From Pontivivens marinum (GTDB lineage: Bacteria > Pseudomonadota > Alphaproteobacteria > Rhodobacterales > Rhodobacteraceae): a DNA stretch of 64,000 nt. The translations under genes and the position numbers were made by a program. Under the pieces are notes generated by a model that was not told the DNA's origin, made no database searches, and saw nothing but the letters and a program-made list of their open reading frames with translations. This document shows positions 15,256 to 27,811 of the stretch, piece after piece. The stretch covers positions 1,054,001 to 1,118,000 of the forward strand of contig NZ_OCTN01000001.1 in assembly GCF_900231835.1 (NCBI RefSeq). The letters are read 5' to 3'. Within the stretch, counting starts at the first letter, position 1, and each line of letters begins with the position of its first letter.

Positions 15256-16098
15256 ATGAAGCGCCTATTTCTTTGCCTGTTACTGATGAGCGCGCCCGCC
15301 AGCGCCGAAACACTCTACTTTTCGGCGATCCCGGATGAGGATGAAACAAGGCTGATCGAACGCTTTGGCGCCGTGGCCGAGTATCTGGAGGCCGAGCTGG
15401 GCGTTGATGTCGAATACATCCCCGTCAAAAGCTACGCCGCAGCCGTAACCGCATTCCGTAATGATCAAATCCAACTGGGCTGGTTTGGCGGCCTCTCCGG
15501 TGTGCAGGCGCGGTTGCAGGTTCCGGGTTCGCAGGCCATCGCACAGGGCGCCGAGGATGAGACCTTTGTGACCTATTTCATCGCCAATGCCGCAACCGGA
15601 TTGCAGCCAAGCGAGGAATTCCCCGATCTGGCAGGACGCAGCTTTACCTTTGGCGCGCAGACCTCGACCTCGGGCCGTTTGATGCCGGAATTCTGGATTC
15701 GCGAATCCACCGGTCAGGCGCCTACGGAGCTGTTCTCGGATGTCGGTTTTTCTGGCGATCACGGACAGACGCTGCGCCTTGTCGCATCGGGCGCTTATGA
15801 AATCGGCGCGATGAACTATTCCGTCTACGACCGTGCTGTGGCCGATGGCGCGGCAGAGGTTGAGCAGGCCAGCATCATCTGGAAAACCCCGCCCTACCCT
15901 GATTACAACTGGACGATCCGTGCTGATGTGGATGCCCGCTTTGGTGAAGGTTTCACAGACCGTGTTCAATCCGCATTGATCGATATGCAGGACGAGGCGC
16001 TGCTGGCTTCCTTCCCGCGCAGTGCGTTCATTCCTGCGGAAAACGCCTTCTACCAGCCGATCGAGGATACAGCCCGCGCGCTGGACATTATCGACTGA
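15256..16098 (+). CDS. PhnD-family ABC substrate-binding protein
   Basis: A 280-residue periplasmic protein with a signal peptide (MKRLFLCLLLMSAPASA, cleavage near residue 17). The mature start ETLYFSAIPDEDETRL and the segments VEYIPVKSYAAAVTAF and LGWFGGLSGVQAR match the PhnD-type phosphonate/phosphite binding family. Among these it is most like the branch annotated as putative selenate-binding proteins. No C-P lyase or selenium genes are in the window, so the ligand cannot be decided. It is the first gene of a three-gene operon; its stop overlaps the ATPase start (TGATG). Confidence 0.83.
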   Translation: MKRLFLCLLLMSAPASAETLYFSAIPDEDETRLIERFGAVAEYLEAELGVDVEYIPVKSYAAAVTAFRNDQIQLGWFGGLSGVQARLQVPGSQAIAQGAEDETFVTYFIANAATGLQPSEEFPDLAGRSFTFGAQTSTSGRLMPEFWIRESTGQAPTELFSDVGFSGDHGQTLRLVASGAYEIGAMNYSVYDRAVADGAAEVEQASIIWKTPPYPDYNWTIRADVDARFGEGFTDRVQSALIDMQDEALLASFPRSAFIPAENAFYQPIEDTARALDIID

Positions 16099-16757
16099 TG
16101 CAAACGCTGCTCTCCCTACAGGATCGCTCGCTGGGATGGGGGGACCATATGGTCCTGCCCAACCTTAGTATCAGTGTGTCGCAGGGGGAGCGGATTGCCG
16201 TTTTGGGGCGCAGCGGCGTGGGGAAAAGCACTCTGCTCTCCGCGCTGGCCGCGCAACAGGACGGCCCACGTATCGCGCTGGTGCCGCAGGATCACGGGTT
16301 GGTCGGGTCGCTGAGCGTATTTCACAACGTCTGGATGGGGCGGCTGGATGATTTCGGCACGGCGCGCAATCTGGCCACGCTGATCTGGCCCCGCGCTACG
16401 CAGCGTGCGCAGGTGGATGCGGTGCTGGACCGTGTTGGCCTGACCGGACTTGGCCGTCGCCCGGTTGCGGAACTGTCCGGTGGACAACGGCAACGTGTCG
16501 CGCTGGCCCGTGCGTTACTACGCGGTGGTCAGATTGTGCTGGCGGATGAGCCTGTCTCCGCCGTTGATCCCGCACAGGGGGCCGACCTGCTGCGGGGGAT
16601 TGCGGACCGGTTCGAAACCGCAATCGTCGTGCTGCACGACGCCGCACTGGCCCGTCAGTTCGCCACGCGCATCATCGGATTGCAGGCGGGCGGCGTAGCC
16701 ATTGATGCCGCCCCCGATGCAATTAGCGATGCCGATCTGGCGGAGCTATACGGGTGA
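16098..16757 (+). CDS. ABC transporter ATP-binding protein, PhnC-like
   Basis: A 219-residue ATPase that powers uptake of the ligand captured by the PhnD-like protein. Walker A is GRSGVGKS (37-44), the signature is LSGGQRQRVALARAL and Walker B with the catalytic Glu is VLADEPVSAVDP. It is short for the family, with no C-terminal extension. It starts in the stop codon of the binding protein gene and its own stop overlaps the GTG start of the permease gene, so the three genes are tightly coupled. Confidence 0.9.
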   Translation: MQTLLSLQDRSLGWGDHMVLPNLSISVSQGERIAVLGRSGVGKSTLLSALAAQQDGPRIALVPQDHGLVGSLSVFHNVWMGRLDDFGTARNLATLIWPRATQRAQVDAVLDRVGLTGLGRRPVAELSGGQRQRVALARALLRGGQIVLADEPVSAVDPAQGADLLRGIADRFETAIVVLHDAALARQFATRIIGLQAGGVAIDAAPDAISDADLAELYG

Positions 16758-18220
16758 AGGCGCGTCACGCATTGGCAGGCTTTGCCGTTGTGACGTTGAT
16801 CGCGATATTGCTCAGCGACATGACCGCCCGCCGGCCGGACCCTTGGCTGACGCTGGCTGCGATGGGGCGCGGGATCATCACCCCCGACTTCAGCGACTTT
16901 ACCGGACTGGCGACTGCCACTGGATTGACGTTGGCCTTTGCCTTTTGCGGGGTCGGGCTGGGCGCGACTGTTGGCCTGATACTGGCCCCGATCTATGCGC
17001 GAGTGCGGGTGCTGTGCGTTTCCGTGCGTGCCGTGCATGAACTGTTCTGGGCGCTGCTGCTGCTCAACATCACCGGCATTTCACCGATAACCGGCGTGCT
17101 GGCCATCGCGTTGCCCTATTCGGGGATTTTCGCCAAGGTTTTCGCAGAGTACCTAGAGGAAGCAGACCCCGCAGCCGAGGCCGCCCTGCCCCGTGGTCTG
17201 CCCGCCACGATCCGCCTGATCTGGGTGCGTATTCCGCAATGCTTGCCACAAATGCAGACCTATACGCTGTACCGACTGGAATGCGGACTGCGCTCCTCGG
17301 CCGTGCTGGGCTTTGTGGGGTTGCCGACATTGGGGTTCGAGCTGGAATCCACCTTTCGCCAAGGGCTGTATGGTGAGGCAACGGCGGTGCTGCTGATCTT
17401 CCTCGCGTTGATCCTGCCGATGCGGCGTTGGGTGATCTGGCGGTTGGTGCCGTTTTACCTGCTGGCCTCGATCATGGCGTTGAGCCTGTTTAAATCGCCG
17501 CCAATGGGTGCCGGCGCGCTGATGCGGTTCCTCAACGATATCATCCCCGCCCCGATCCGCACCGGCGCGGATTGGAGCAGTTGGCTGGATAAGGTCTTCG
17601 TCCAACAGGCATGGCCCGGCGCGATGGATACCCTCGTCCTGTCGCAGATCGCACTGGCCGGCGCGGCGCTGTTGGCGGCGATTGCCTTTCCGGCGATTGT
17701 ACCGCGTGTGGCGGGTCGGGTCGGTGCAGTGATCGGGCATGGGGTGCTGGTGGTGCTGCGATCCATCCCCGAATACATGCTGGCCTTTGTCTTTGTGCAA
17801 ATCCTGGGCGCATCGATGCTGCCCGCCATTCTGGCGCTGGCGCTGCATAATGGCGCGATCATCGCGCATCTGGCCGGTCGGCAGGCAACCGGCGTGGACC
17901 TCCGCCCCGATGCCCCGCGCGGCTTGACCCTATGGGCGTGGGAGCTGTTTCCGCGTATGAGCGGCACGTTCTGGGCCCTGTGCCTGTATCGGTGGGAGAT
18001 TATCCTGCGGGAAAGCGCGATCATGGGCCTGCTGGGCATCGCCACATTGGGGTTCTACATCCAGACCGGCGTGCAGGAATTGCGGCTGGACCGCGTGATT
18101 GCGCTGCTTCTGGTCTCGATCCTGCTGACCTTTATCATCGATCAGATCTCACGCAGTTTGCGCCGCCGCATGCAGTTGGGCGGCGCATTGCGGGTCGAGG
18201 CAACACGGGGCCGATCCTAA
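16754..18220 (+). CDS. Fused tandem ABC permease, PhnE-like
   Basis: A 488-residue integral membrane protein made of two permease domains in one chain (about 1-245 and 270-488). Each half has a cytoplasmic loop of the EAA type: AALPRGLPATIRLIWVRIP in the first and DAPRGLTLWAWELFP in the second. About ten to twelve hydrophobic segments are visible. Ordinary PhnE is a single domain of about 260-290 residues that dimerises, so this is an internal duplication or fusion. The GTG start shares 4 bases with the ATPase stop. The 3' end overlaps by 4 bases the stop of the convergent sulfotransferase-like gene. Confidence 0.87.
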   Translation: MKARHALAGFAVVTLIAILLSDMTARRPDPWLTLAAMGRGIITPDFSDFTGLATATGLTLAFAFCGVGLGATVGLILAPIYARVRVLCVSVRAVHELFWALLLLNITGISPITGVLAIALPYSGIFAKVFAEYLEEADPAAEAALPRGLPATIRLIWVRIPQCLPQMQTYTLYRLECGLRSSAVLGFVGLPTLGFELESTFRQGLYGEATAVLLIFLALILPMRRWVIWRLVPFYLLASIMALSLFKSPPMGAGALMRFLNDIIPAPIRTGADWSSWLDKVFVQQAWPGAMDTLVLSQIALAGAALLAAIAFPAIVPRVAGRVGAVIGHGVLVVLRSIPEYMLAFVFVQILGASMLPAILALALHNGAIIAHLAGRQATGVDLRPDAPRGLTLWAWELFPRMSGTFWALCLYRWEIILRESAIMGLLGIATLGFYIQTGVQELRLDRVIALLLVSILLTFIIDQISRSLRRRMQLGGALRVEATRGRS

Positions 18221-18927
18221 ATCGCGTGTGCGGCCAGCCGTTCGTAACAGGGCATCGCCGCGTCAGCCAAGCGGGCGGCCTGTCCGCTCAATTCCGGCAA
18301 TGGTCCCTCCGCCGCGGCAAATCCGGTGGACCGATGCACGGCCCCGTACCAATGCGGCGCCCATGGCCCGTCATAGGGTCGCGGGCCAGCGGGCCAGTGC
18401 AGCATTTCCACACGGAACGGAATGCCCAACGCGGTGCACAGCGCACTCAACTTACCCTGCGGATCGACGCGAATATCCGCACTGTCCACCACCAGCGGTG
18501 CGTGACCGGTATCCTGCGCAACGGCGTCGAATAGCTGCGCCTGTTGCACGAACCCGATATCGGACAGGGTCGGGTCCTCGTATTTCGCGGCAAAGCTGGC
18601 CATAACCCGCGCCGGATGCCGGATCAGGAACACATTCGTAACATCCCGCATCCAGTCGCGCGGAATCCCGTCCACCATGTGCTGGCACATGTGCTTTTGA
18701 TAGAAATGCGGCTGCACGCCATCCTGCGCACAGGCATTGGCAACGGTGTGGCCGTCACGCTGCCACTGGGCCAAGGTTTCGGCCCGCATCGGATGGTCGA
18801 TCCCTGTCGCGTCCAGATAGGCGGCATAGAATGGCTCATCCCACACCGTGCAATCCCCACGCGCGGCAAAGGAATACATCATCGCCGTGGACAGATTGCG
18901 CGGGCCGGACCACATCGCGATTTTCAT
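18217..18927 (-). CDS. Sulfotransferase-like protein
   Basis: A 236-residue protein with a PAPS-type nucleotide-binding start, MKIAMWSGPRNLSTAMMYSF, where PRNLST takes the place of the 5'-phosphosulfate loop, and a 3'-phosphate-like segment LIRHPARVMASF. From memory it closely resembles the N-terminal domain of plant proteins named branched-chain aminotransferase-like, in which this domain is fused to a class IV aminotransferase. Here the aminotransferase is the gene directly upstream, with a 4-base overlap (ATGA). The substrate and even sulfotransfer activity are unproven; it could be a phosphotransferase-like homologue. Confidence 0.72.
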   Translation of the reverse strand: MKIAMWSGPRNLSTAMMYSFAARGDCTVWDEPFYAAYLDATGIDHPMRAETLAQWQRDGHTVANACAQDGVQPHFYQKHMCQHMVDGIPRDWMRDVTNVFLIRHPARVMASFAAKYEDPTLSDIGFVQQAQLFDAVAQDTGHAPLVVDSADIRVDPQGKLSALCTALGIPFRVEMLHWPAGPRPYDGPWAPHWYGAVHRSTGFAAAEGPLPELSGQAARLADAAMPCYERLAAHAI

Positions 18928-19817
18928 GCGCCGACCTCCTGCATATAGGCCTCGCGGATGCGCTGCATAATCGGCCCGCCCTGACCCGTGCCGATCTGGC
19001 GGCCGTCAATTTCACTCACCGGTGTTTGCGCACCGAATGATCCGGTCAGGAACGCCTCATCCGCGCCATATGCCTCCACCAGTGAGTAGTTCTTCTCCCG
19101 CACCGGAATGCCCAGTTCACCGCAGATGCGGATCACCGCCGCACGGGTGATACCGTTCATGCAATAATCACCGGTAGAGGTCCAAACCTCGCCCCGCCGC
19201 ACGATGAAGAAGTTGCAGGCATTCGTCGTGTTCACAAAACCATGTACATCCAGCATCAGCGCCTCATCCGCGCCGGATTTTTCGGCGGCGATACAGGCGA
19301 GGATGCAGTTCAGCTTGGAATGCGAATTCAGCTTGGGGTCCTGCGTCATTGGCAAACCGCGCAGATGCGGCACCGTGGCCAACCGGATCGGGCGACCGAT
19401 CTGAGCCTTGGAATGTTCCATGATGATGGTGATCGTCGGGCCGCTGCGCGACAATGCGGGGTGCTGGAATGGTCGAGTTTTAACACCGCGTGTGACCATC
19501 AGACGGGCATGGGCATCCGTCACCATTTCATTTGCCTGCTGCGTGTTGTCCAGCGCGGCGATGATCTGTTGGGGGGTCATGCCGATGTCGAGGTCGATAG
19601 CCTTTGCCGCCTCGAACAATCGCTCGATATGCAGGTCGCGAAACGCCCATGTACCATTATACAGGCGCAGCCCCTCCCACACGCCGTCGCCCAGCATGAA
19701 ACCACTATCGTAGACGGAGACCAGCGCCTGCGCACGCGGCACCAGTTTTCCGTTGAGCCAGATCAGGATCCCCTCGTTGCGGGCATCTTCCTCGGCGGCA
19801 TGGGTGAACGTATCCAT
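18924..19817 (-). CDS. Class IV PLP aminotransferase
   Basis: A 297-residue fold-type IV PLP enzyme, the family of branched-chain aminotransferases, D-amino-acid transaminases and aminodeoxychorismate lyase. The N-terminal region GKLVPRAQALVSVYDSGFMLGDGVWEGLRLY is typical, the PLP lysine lies in the PKLNSHSKLN segment, and GADEALMLDVHGFV with TRAAVI are family motifs. The ATG at 19817 has AAGGAG five bases upstream, better placed than the GTG two codons earlier. Its stop overlaps the start of the sulfotransferase-like gene. The pairing suggests a joint pathway rather than housekeeping valine or leucine synthesis. Confidence 0.87.
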   Translation of the reverse strand: MDTFTHAAEEDARNEGILIWLNGKLVPRAQALVSVYDSGFMLGDGVWEGLRLYNGTWAFRDLHIERLFEAAKAIDLDIGMTPQQIIAALDNTQQANEMVTDAHARLMVTRGVKTRPFQHPALSRSGPTITIIMEHSKAQIGRPIRLATVPHLRGLPMTQDPKLNSHSKLNCILACIAAEKSGADEALMLDVHGFVNTTNACNFFIVRRGEVWTSTGDYCMNGITRAAVIRICGELGIPVREKNYSLVEAYGADEAFLTGSFGAQTPVSEIDGRQIGTGQGGPIMQRIREAYMQEVGA

Positions 19818-19965
19818 CGGCACTCCTTTTGCACCGATGCTAGCGCCGCTAATCCGCGCTGAATAGCGTCTGCGGCGCCCTGTTCAGGACTGAAATGTGT
19901 GCACACAATTGCGCGCCGTGGATCAGGGTTTTGCCAGCATGATGTTCCTCAAGCTGGTTAATGGT

Positions 19966-20043: not shown

Positions 20044-20394
20044 TCAGCTCGTGGGTTTTAGGGCGGCGGTAATGATGATCTCGACCTTCAGCGCGTCGCG
20101 GGCCAGCTTTGCCTCGCCGCAGGCGCGGGCGGGGGCGTGGCCCTGTGGTATCCATGCGTCCCAGACAGCGTTCATCTCGGCAAAGTCCTGCATATCCGCC
20201 AACCAAACGATTGCTTGCAGGATATGTTCGCGGTCCGATCCCGCCTCGACCAGCAGGGCATCAATCCGGCCAAGGCAATCCTGCGTTTGCGCGGCAACAC
20301 CATCGCCCGCGCCGACCTGACCGCACAGATAGATTGTGCCGTTATGGGTGACGATTTTGCTCATCCGGTCGTTTGTGTGCTGGCGTTCGATCAT
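20044..20394 (-). CDS. RidA-family protein
   Basis: A 116-residue YjgF/YER057c/UK114-family protein; RidA members hydrolyse reactive enamine/imine intermediates made by PLP enzymes. The conserved Arg is in [12 protein letters not shown], near residue 93, and the C-terminal VEIIITAA strand fits the trimeric fold. The start at 20394 overlaps the stop of the broken acyl-CoA ligase gene (ATGA); an alternative start is MSKIV, ten codons on. Translation was probably coupled to the now decayed upstream gene, so expression may have changed. The class IV aminotransferase nearby is a possible functional partner. Confidence 0.85.
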
Positions 20395-26239: not shown

Positions 26240-27811
26240 TTAGTTAAAGGGCATCTCGGCTACAGCCATTTCGCGCCCGTTCTTAAAGGGAATATCGAGG
26301 AAACGCGCAATCTGCTCCCCTGCCAGATCGGCACTGTCATGCAGGTTCAACGTGTAGAAATGTGCAAGGTTCAAATCGCGCAGCGCGTTGCTGTCATCCC
26401 TGAACTGCCGGTCCAGCGTGCGGATCAGCGGCATGCAATCCTCCAACCGCGCCTCGTCAGGCAACAGACCCGCCCGCTTAGCATGGCCCAGCAGATAATC
26501 ATCATCAATGTCTGTGCGCAGCTCCATCACCCGCAGGTTGCACTGATCATCCCGAATATCGCGCAGCGCGTCGATATTTGACGGGTCCAGACAGATCATC
26601 AGGCGTTCCGCGTCGTGATATTCCAGCAGCATCCGCAAAACGGCGCGACGGTGGCGGCCACGCTTGGGGGTTGATGTCTCAATCCCGCCCAGCGCGGGCA
26701 ATGCGCCGGCATCCTCGTCAAAAACATAGCCATGAGCCATGGGACCGCCGGCGCGACGGGCGGCGTTCATGAAGCGCTTGCCGACATGGTATTTCTTGCA
26801 CACCACGACCAGCATTTCGTTCCCGCGCCCGATCTTGCCGCCCCGCTCCCAGAAACGTTCGGTGTAACGGCCCCCGACACGGCCGCGTCGGGTGACATAT
26901 TCAAACAGCGCACCGGCGGTATCCGCCGTTACCATGCGGTCGAAATCCTGCGAGAATAAATCCCGCAGCCGTTCACGCAGGCTCAGCGCATTTTCCGAAA
27001 CCTTGCGCGTGAACAGATGGGGCTGGGTGCGTACCAGATCGTATTGGTCATCATGAAACACCAACGGCAATCCGTAATCCGAAAAGGCGAGGAAGGTCAG
27101 CGTGCGGTTTTCCACCTGCTCACGCGGGACCACATGCATGACGAGGCTCTGAAAATAGGTCTCATCCGGAATCCAGGTGGTGGCGAAAAAGCGCGGTATA
27201 TCCTTGCGAGAGGCCGTCAGCGCCAGCACCTTATCCACCGTACTACGCCGCAGAACGCACCACTGGGACCCGATATAGATCGTCAGACCCTTGGGCGTGC
27301 TCCGCTCCATCCCCAAGGCACGTTGCAGCTTTAGCGCGCCATAGAACAGCGCCTTGCGCGTGCGTTCGTTGAAATAATGGCGATAGCGCAGGCGGTCCTC
27401 TTTGATGCCAGTCTTGATCCAATCGCTCTCATAGAAATCGTTATGCTCAACGAAATCCTTGTCGTTTTCCTCAAGGTAGCGCGCGATATAGGCGCGCGGC
27501 TTGGTCGGCATGCAATCGCCAGAGATAAAGTAGAAATGCGTCGCGTCCGGCCATTTGCTGCGCGCCATTTTCAGCGCGTTCAGCGTGGCCAGAACCAGAC
27601 TCCATTCCCCCCAGCCGCATTTTACACGGTCACAAAAGGCAACATTGGGATCGTCACCCAGTTCCTCGACAATCTGGGACCAGACGGCAGGGGCTGCGCT
27701 TTTATCGACATGAATGGCGATTTTGTCGCCATGTTTTGTCAACATGCGGGCCTGCTGTATCACCCCTTGGGGGTTTTTGTGGCAGAGAAGAATGTACGCG
27801 ATCTGAACCAT
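26240..27811 (-). CDS. GT14-like beta-1,6-GlcNAc transferase with long C-terminal domain
   Basis: A 523-residue protein. The first 280 residues match the core-2/I-branching glycosyltransferase family: IAYILLCHKNPQGVIQQARML at the start, HFYFISGDCMPTKP near residue 92 and IYIGSQWCVLRRSTVDKVL near 190. The remaining 240 residues form the extension often found in Rhodobacterales members (DUF5928-like, from memory). No signal peptide is seen, so it acts in the cytoplasm. It is divergent from a sulfotransferase gene across a 143-bp gap; together they suggest synthesis of a sulfated surface glycan. Confidence 0.82.
   Translation of the reverse strand: MVQIAYILLCHKNPQGVIQQARMLTKHGDKIAIHVDKSAAPAVWSQIVEELGDDPNVAFCDRVKCGWGEWSLVLATLNALKMARSKWPDATHFYFISGDCMPTKPRAYIARYLEENDKDFVEHNDFYESDWIKTGIKEDRLRYRHYFNERTRKALFYGALKLQRALGMERSTPKGLTIYIGSQWCVLRRSTVDKVLALTASRKDIPRFFATTWIPDETYFQSLVMHVVPREQVENRTLTFLAFSDYGLPLVFHDDQYDLVRTQPHLFTRKVSENALSLRERLRDLFSQDFDRMVTADTAGALFEYVTRRGRVGGRYTERFWERGGKIGRGNEMLVVVCKKYHVGKRFMNAARRAGGPMAHGYVFDEDAGALPALGGIETSTPKRGRHRRAVLRMLLEYHDAERLMICLDPSNIDALRDIRDDQCNLRVMELRTDIDDDYLLGHAKRAGLLPDEARLEDCMPLIRTLDRQFRDDSNALRDLNLAHFYTLNLHDSADLAGEQIARFLDIPFKNGREMAVAEMPFN

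Follow-up and report, generated by a model that had tools for sequence, protein, structure and literature searches.

A predicted PAPS-dependent sulfotransferase paired with a lysine-less aminotransferase-like protein in Rhodobacterales

Two overlapping genes in the window (the whole stretch of 64,000 nucleotides of DNA that was analysed) encode a predicted PAPS-dependent sulfotransferase and a protein of the class IV aminotransferase fold, here called the partner, in which the PLP-binding lysine is replaced by asparagine. We put the probability at roughly 0.55 that both genes form one functional unit, in which the sulfotransferase and the repurposed, lysine-less fold serve a shared small metabolite derived from an amino acid.

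The gene pair and the predicted sulfotransferase

Both genes are read from the minus strand, with the partner upstream:

18217-18927, minus strand: sulfotransferase gene (PF19798, Sulfotransfer_5), 236 aa
18924-19823, minus strand: lysine-less aminotransferase-like gene (class IV fold; the partner), 299 aa from GTG
18924-18927, minus strand: overlap, ATGA, made of the TGA stop of the upstream partner gene and the ATG start of the downstream sulfotransferase gene

Read from the ATG at 19817, which the first-pass annotation had used as the end coordinate, the partner ORF is 297 aa. That annotation had described a sulfotransferase/class IV gene pair with a 4-base overlap; the ORFs and the shared bases 18924-18927 confirmed it, and the motifs that it had quoted were found in the proteins (GPRNLSTAMMYSF and WDEPFYAAYL). 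The domain match that it had proposed to check by profile search also held. PF19798 covers residues 1-234 of the sulfotransferase (E 6e-79, 265 bits against a cut-off of 23.2, Pfam profile search) and Aminotran_4 (PF01063) matches the partner (E 1.6e-36, Pfam), for which NCBIfam gave no model above cut-off.

The same 4-base overlap occurs in 19 of 41 bacterial loci that hold both genes. All 41 keep the two genes separate, with no fusion among them; at L073 and L063 a large open frame suggested one, but the two genes proved to lie in different frames. The first-pass annotation had likened the pair to plant branched-chain-amino-acid aminotransferase-like proteins, in which both domains would be fused into a single chain. 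Literature searches returned no paper under two Arabidopsis locus names, titles on other subjects under the plant protein name, and no paper on the pairing of a sulfotransferase with a class IV aminotransferase.

The domain and motifs of the protein encoded at 18217-18927 predict that it is a PAPS-dependent sulfotransferase that catalyses sulfuryl transfer. The top structural match of its predicted model (pLDDT 95.4) was 4gbm, a sulfotransferase (Z 14.5), and CurM, olefin synthase and tyrosylprotein sulfotransferases tied as matches at Z 14.4-14.5. A comparison of the sulfotransferase profile with PDB sequences gave only the CurM (3.2e-8) and olefin synthase (5.3e-8) domains up to E 0.5. Motif conservation located two elements, which we take to be the PAPS-binding motifs of sulfotransferases:

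18886-18912, minus strand: 5'-phosphosulfate loop WSGPRNLST, residues 6-14
18595-18621, minus strand: 3'-phosphate motif R103-x-P-...-S111, spacing 8

Residues W6, S7, G8, P9, R10, N11, S13 and T14 of the loop are invariant in 35 of 35 sulfotransferases and each is present in at least 97% of 61, and R103, P105 and S111 are likewise invariant in 35 of 35. The 3' motif can be aligned with LVRHP..V..S in the sulfotransferase domains of CurM and olefin synthase (4gbm, 4gox), which have the sulfotransferase fold and the R..S motif in common with the protein studied here. These domains, however, sit in polyketide synthases and act on carrier-bound acyl chains, whereas the protein here is a free one of 236 aa. 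Since both motifs are of the kind found in PAPS enzymes, the phosphorylated product that had been suggested as an option finds no support. An APS kinase occurs in 148 of the order's 149 surveyed genomes, with or without the pair, and PAPS supply therefore says nothing about which genomes carry it.

In the available parts of PMC12506393 and PMC11625862, found by the family name, PF19798 is merely listed or used as a search model. The sulfur-containing aminolipid of roseobacters was considered as a product and rejected; the available part of PMC8319176 does not contain the words sulfotransferase or aminotransferase.

An aminotransferase fold without its lysine

The predicted model of the partner (pLDDT 86.6) matched 7z79 best (Z 37.2), and the 50 structural matches listed are class IV aminotransferases or proteins like them (Z 28.5-37.2). 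With the archaeal-type branched-chain aminotransferases 5mqz, 5cm0 and 5e25 the partner shares fold type IV, 36-37% identity and the phosphate cup, but their Lys, Glu and Tyr contacts to PLP are replaced by Asn, Thr/Ser and Lys/Arg, respectively. According to the part of PMC12429042 available to us, the Tyr of class IV aminotransferases contacts O3' of PLP and the Glu contacts N1. The altered positions are as follows:

19326-19328, minus strand: N166 codon, at the place of the PLP lysine of class IV aminotransferases (ungapped alignment with 5mqz, 5cm0 and 5e25)
19320-19322, minus strand: H168 codon, beside the lost lysine; His in 102 of 102 alignment rows
19314-19316, minus strand: K170 codon, at the place of the Tyr touching PLP O3'; Lys in 90 and Arg in 12 of 102 rows
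19227-19229, minus strand: T199 codon, at the place of the Glu touching PLP N1, aligned with the Glu of 5mqz, 5cm0 and 5e25; Thr in 90 and Ser in 12 of 102 rows

Asn stands at the lysine place in 80 of 80 loci and in 102 of 102 alignment rows; at least 15 of these rows repeat a gene that the set already contains, and 10 of the loci overlap with the 80. Another 21 loci had Asn in 16 cases, the remaining five being lysine-bearing outgroup relatives, and no other lysine is invariant among the aligned partner proteins. The partner thus has the fold and the phosphate-cup Arg and Thr of a PLP fold type IV aminotransferase, and lacks the Schiff-base lysine, the N1 Glu and the O3' Tyr. In the cup, R68 and T226 are kept in 102 of 102 rows, with Thr or Ser at 262. 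Nine residues of the pocket (W49, H105, R107, N166, H168, S169, N201, T226 and T260) are invariant in all 102 rows, suggesting that a ligand site has been kept. As judged from these replacements, the partner is probably not a transaminase. The first-pass annotation had overlooked this main point, that the predicted "aminotransferase" is one without the PLP-binding lysine.

The closest relative of known structure, 7z79, is an aminotransferase-like protein of Variovorax paradoxus that shares the fold and 46% identity over 287 residues with the partner and has the same Asn at the lysine place; by this Asn and by highest similarity the partner belongs with lysine-less proteins of the 7z79 kind. 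The two differ at two of the altered positions, 7z79 having Arg at 170 and Ser at 199 in place of K170 and T199. Such Arg/Ser variants occur in a transporter-linked group of partner proteins and at loci such as L063. The literature matches listed included no paper on the 7z79 protein.

Co-occurrence and gene neighbourhoods

The main survey covered 149 genomes of the window's order, the Rhodobacterales. The sulfotransferase is present in 113 of them, and all 113 also carry the partner; 34 genomes have neither gene and two have the partner only, so that 147 of 149 hold both or neither. Three genomes with PF19798 below 75 bits (G033, G091, G129) and low-scoring second copies were left out before these counts. 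None of the 149 genomes has two partner copies. In 69 of the 113 genomes with both genes, the two share a strand and lie no more than 5 kb apart; in the other 44 the partner is elsewhere. Outside the order, the partner adjoins the sulfotransferase in 14 of 14 loci. A phylum sample of 398 genomes, 23 of them shared with the order survey, had the partner in 37 of 37 sulfotransferase genomes after G470 (62 bits) and low second copies had been left out; L273 (G215), at 39-41% identity, passed the partner threshold but was not counted as lysine-less, since it has the lysine. In the five genera where presence varies, a genome has both genes or neither, a check on kinship made at genus level only.

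Because 147 of 149 genomes have both genes or neither, and because 19 of 41 loci have the 4-base overlap, the pairing goes far beyond chance. The adjacency survey that the first-pass annotation had called for, with 69 of 113 pairs close together, 14 of 14 adjoining outside the order, and co-occurrence even where the genes are apart, therefore bears out its functional pairing. On the whole, its domain match and functional pairing stand, and its active aminotransferase and phosphorylated product are not supported. PF19798 had no match in 14 control genomes from other phyla, no plasmid copies of the sulfotransferase were found at 1e-20, and no viral relatives were found. Four genomes of the phylum sample and two of the order carry the partner but no sulfotransferase, so the partner has a role of its own, which counts against a single unit.

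Of the 44 split-pair genomes, 26 were placed in the partner tree, which does not include 7z79: 20 fell in a second partner clade (support 0.999), one on a basal branch and five in the transporter-linked group. The sulfotransferase lies beside the same argG cluster in 14 of 20 fetched split loci and in 15 of 27 adjacent-set loci. Since split genomes carry other partner clades while the sulfotransferase keeps its argG site, tree and synteny together suggest that the partner was exchanged, not dispensed with. In G021 and G076 the second partner clade adjoins the sulfotransferase with the gene order reversed. Five order genomes (G042, G078, G098, G113, G146) have as their sole partner a member of the transporter-linked group (46-49%), and co-occurrence in these five may be coincidence. 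The split genes give no direct sign of contact between the proteins, which counts against a single unit.

In a set of 17 loci, made up of L262 and 16 members of the transporter-linked group, a polar amino-acid ABC transporter precedes the partner in 13 and a ClC channel gene adjoins it in 4. Elsewhere its relatives adjoin imine reductase genes and, once, a choline-sulfatase gene. Among 50 partner loci without an adjacent sulfotransferase, six have a ProC-type gene on the same strand no more than 4 kb away and two an ornithine-cyclodeaminase-type gene; such neighbours are seen at L214, L215, L223, L225 and L258 and at L120 and L263, in two clades.

Within the order, the sulfotransferase is often found in a housekeeping block, which at L076 includes malic enzyme, PfkB kinase, MsrA, argininosuccinate synthase and threonine deaminase. 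The neighbours scanned outside the order vary, and no conserved third gene other than generic ABC ATPases was found there in the 80 fetched loci, whose genes were called by a coarse script. The PhnDCE-like transporter at 15256-18220 (plus strand) was rejected as part of a joint operon and taken as a chance neighbour, because its genes and the pair are convergent and neither its binding protein nor its permease has a counterpart in the 80 loci. RidA at 20044-20394 (minus strand) was rejected as a further component, having no counterpart near the pair in the same loci.

Discussion

In the reading that we prefer, the sulfotransferase would move the sulfuryl group from PAPS to a hydroxyl of a small amino-acid-derived molecule, and the old PLP phosphate cup of the partner would hold a phosphate-bearing ligand without a Schiff base to the protein. 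Candidate ligands are PMP, a free PLP-amino acid adduct or another phosphorylated metabolite. The partner, perhaps in physical contact with the sulfotransferase, would present or convert the same metabolite that the sulfotransferase takes as its substrate.

The loss of the catalytic lysine and ring contacts would also be explained if the partner were a catalytically dead scaffold or a ligand-sensing regulator of the sulfotransferase, and the one-way dependence, in which the sulfotransferase needs the partner, points in the same direction. We consider such a role unlikely but worth weighing; against it, the nine pocket residues are invariant, and some amino-acid transporter operons hold the partner with no sulfotransferase.

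Sulfate could instead serve as a leaving group. The sulfotransferase would sulfate an amino-acid-like substrate at its beta- or gamma-hydroxyl, and the partner, using PMP or a free PLP adduct with H168 as base, would eliminate sulfate to give an enamine or imine that is then reduced or hydrolysed. The CurM and olefin synthase domains, the only PDB profile matches up to E 0.5, sulfate a hydroxyl that then becomes a leaving group, but these domains tie structurally with tyrosylprotein sulfotransferases, and the PDB may hold few related bacterial sulfotransferases. The ProC-type (6/50) and ornithine-cyclodeaminase-type (2/50) genes near the partner in two clades would suit the reaction, and the ClC channel in 4 of 17 loci would fit chloride release there; however, ProC and ClC may be chance neighbours and are missing from most of the 50 loci. 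A precedent exists in ColD and E1, aminotransferase-fold enzymes in which the lysine is changed to His and PMP is used to remove a hydroxyl, but they are of another fold type, and the partner has Asn at that place and its invariant His two residues on. Altogether we find this elimination quite improbable. More doubtful still is its extension to a widespread two-protein chemistry, in which sulfation would make the leaving group, the lysine-free fold with PMP or a free PLP adduct would eliminate it, relatives in transporter operons would use other leaving groups on imported substrates, and plants would carry the fusion. An active aminotransferase that makes a sulfated amino acid or keto acid together with the sulfotransferase, as the first-pass annotation had it, is very hard to credit: the class IV fold, the Pfam match and the kept phosphate cup would suit it, but the Schiff-base position is Asn in every member examined, there is no invariant lysine elsewhere in the protein, two more PLP contacts have changed, and 9j32, the N174K mutant of 7z79, changes this same Asn to Lys as if to restore the lysine.

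Most plasmid relatives of the partner are labelled 'aminotransferase class IV' in public records. The lysine-free, strictly conserved partner occurs in 115 of 149 sampled order genomes, and on it this label is probably a misannotation. The sulfotransferase was never found without the partner in the genomes surveyed, which gives a handle on both proteins. The pair points to an uncharacterised step linked to sulfation, perhaps in the metabolism of amino acids, that common marine bacteria carry out; should the plant proteins prove to be a fusion of the two, land plants would have this step as well.

The gene pair and its neighbors

The two minus-strand genes overlap by four bases, as the first-pass annotation had proposed, the shared bases being ATGA, and profile searches confirmed both domain assignments.

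18924-19823, minus strand: partner gene (upstream), aminotransferase-like, Aminotran_4 (PF01063, E 1.6e-36)
18217-18927, minus strand: sulfotransferase gene (downstream), Sulfotransfer_5 (PF19798, E 6e-79)

No NCBIfam model matched the sulfotransferase, and none of the 18 matching the partner exceeded its cut-off. PF19798 has one match in the window's genome, and the best 80 of 561 named partner relatives were chiefly from Rhodobacterales.

A PhnDCE-like ABC transporter (15256-18220, plus strand) lies tail to tail with the sulfotransferase gene, with a 4-base overlap. Its binding protein scored 360 bits on TIGR04553, a 'putative selenate' transporter model (cut-off 250), and its 488-aa permease matched PhnE in two stretches at 195 bits, below the cut-off of 216.7. 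A second sulfotransferase of a different Pfam family (PF03567; 27931-28755, plus strand) adjoins a Core-2/I-branching protein with DUF5928 (26240-27811, minus strand), and these are perhaps a surface glycan pair.

The partner lacks the catalytic lysine

The partner had been annotated as a class IV aminotransferase; our alignments do not support a working one. In a gap-free alignment with archaeal branched-chain aminotransferases (PKLNSHSKLN against PNIKSLNYLN of 5mqz), N166 occupies the place of the Schiff-base lysine. Asparagine was found there in 35/35 sequences, in all 80 named loci, and in all 102 rows of the partner alignment, of which at least 15 duplicate a gene and 10 are loci also among the 80. 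Of 21 more loci (L261 and L265 are the same gene), 16 likewise have asparagine, and five are relatives that carry Lys and Glu instead. Across 61 orthologues, no lysine was invariant anywhere in the partner.

In one class IV enzyme (PMC12429042), PLP is contacted by K158, E194, and Y162, and its phosphate by R61, T223, and T260. In the alignment, the partner has Asn, Thr/Ser, and Lys/Arg in place of the former three but retains Arg and Thr for the phosphate, so its active site preserves the phosphate cup and differs in the contacts to the ring. Seven residues (W49, H105, R107, N166, H168, S169, and N201) are invariant across the 102 rows, which indicates strong selection on the pocket. Among solved structures, the best match is 7z79 (Z 37.2, 46%), titled 'aminotransferase-like protein from Variovorax paradoxus'; entry 9j32 shows the same protein with the mutation N174K. 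The literature matches listed included no paper on this protein.

The sulfotransferase

All 35 sulfotransferase sequences compared have R103...S111 and GPRNxST unchanged, and motifs of these types are typical of PAPS enzymes. APS kinase is present in 148 of the 149 Rhodobacterales genomes irrespective of the pair, and PAPS supply thus does not separate carriers from non-carriers. The top structural matches were tied (CurM 14.5, TPST1 14.4, olefin synthase 14.4). A single-sequence search found nothing relevant, and a profile search of the PDB up to E 0.5 returned only CurM (3.2e-8) and olefin synthase (5.3e-8), whose sulfotransferase domains sulfate a hydroxyl that then becomes a leaving group. 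Of the readings compatible with the data, a mechanism with sulfate as leaving group goes furthest, and we consider it improbable.

Co-occurrence and adjacency

Presence was scored in the 149 Rhodobacterales genomes as a full-length PF19798 match above 200 bits or a partner orthologue of at least 46% identity; three more genomes with solely low-scoring PF19798 matches were left out of the count. The sulfotransferase was found in 113 genomes and the partner in 115: 113 had both, 34 had neither, 2 had the partner alone, and none had the sulfotransferase alone. Both genes lay within 5 kb on the same strand in 69 of the 113 genomes and apart in 44. Outside the order, they were neighbors in 14 of 14 loci. 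In five of five genera with mixed presence, the genes were present or absent jointly, the partner of one genus (g7) belonging to a transporter-linked group, often located behind amino-acid ABC transporter genes.

In a sample of 398 genomes of the phylum, PF19798 matched in 38; 37 were kept after dropping a low-scoring one (G470), 23 of them shared with the order sample, and all 37 had the partner. A partner-like match at 1e-45 was present in 42 genomes, reduced to 41 because one (G215) has the lysine, and four of the 41 lacked the sulfotransferase.

Among 41 loci with both genes, the partner came first in 38 and second in 3; the 4-base overlap occurred in 19, gaps reached 777 and 1877 bases in two, and no locus had the genes fused. 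In plants, both domains are probably fused in one protein, as the first-pass annotation had proposed. The sulfotransferase was inside the fetched stretch at 69 of the 80 named loci and not at 11, two of which lie on contigs ending near the gene.

The pair also occurs in Alteromonas aestuariivivens and an Alteromonadaceae MAG (L161, L200), where partner identity is 72-76% against 52-55% at two phylum-sample pair loci outside the window's class (L073, L074), suggesting probable transfer. In two Granulosicoccaceae MAGs (L216, L217), the partner is 67-68% identical and the sulfotransferase is absent from the stretch.

Partner genes away from a sulfotransferase

We examined 50 partner loci without an adjacent sulfotransferase, although many of these genomes have one elsewhere. 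Of these loci, 24 had an ABC ATPase on the same strand no more than 4 kb away, in some cases only a distant relative. When 16 loci of the transporter-linked group were taken together with L262 (nearer L061 and L067 in the tree), 13 of the 17 had a polar amino-acid ABC transporter gene directly ahead of the partner; it was divergent at L257 and absent at L105, L118, and L275.

A ClC channel gene followed the partner in 4 of the 17, and P. savastanoi has a short ClC-named gene further downstream. At L223, L225, L258, and L270, an amino-acid ABC transporter and the lysine-less partner are followed directly by the ClC-type gene, with proC nearby in at least three; chloride is possibly released there from a chlorinated amino acid.

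In a second clade of the partner tree, such a transporter lies directly or one gene upstream at L103, L120, L263, L264, and L265, a ProC-like gene lies 86 bases past the partner at L214 and L215, and L263 and L120 have an ornithine-cyclodeaminase-type gene. On a Mameliella alba plasmid (L265, 4840-18333), one strand carries the transporter, the lysine-less partner, a choline-sulfatase gene overlapping it by 4 bases (592 bits, cut-off 433), and then DapA-family, oxidoreductase, aldehyde dehydrogenase, and proline racemase family genes, an arrangement that resembles a catabolic pathway for a sulfated or hydroxyproline-like compound. Many second-clade loci have no such neighbors, and the locus context only weakly suggests amino-acid or imine chemistry.

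Probable exchange of the partner

The partner tree (121 sequences, some genes entered twice with differing ends) separated the window's operon clade, the second clade (support 0.999), adjacent genes of other families, and the transporter-linked group (0.976). The tree included 26 genomes whose two genes are separated: 20 had a second-clade partner and five a transporter-linked one, and the partner of the remaining genome (L119) was on a branch basal to the operon and second clades. None of the 149 order genomes had two partner copies. An argininosuccinate synthase cluster lies beside the sulfotransferase in 14 of 20 fetched separated loci and 15 of 27 adjacent-set loci. It therefore seems that the sulfotransferase stayed put while its partner was replaced by another one at a different place. 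In G021 and G076 (loci L077 and L078), a second-clade partner adjoins the sulfotransferase in reversed order, outside the argininosuccinate synthase block. The apparent replacement and this reversed arrangement argue for a functional tie between the genes, beyond mere shared inheritance. We favor, at a probability of about 0.55, a two-protein unit whose 'aminotransferase' is no transaminase.
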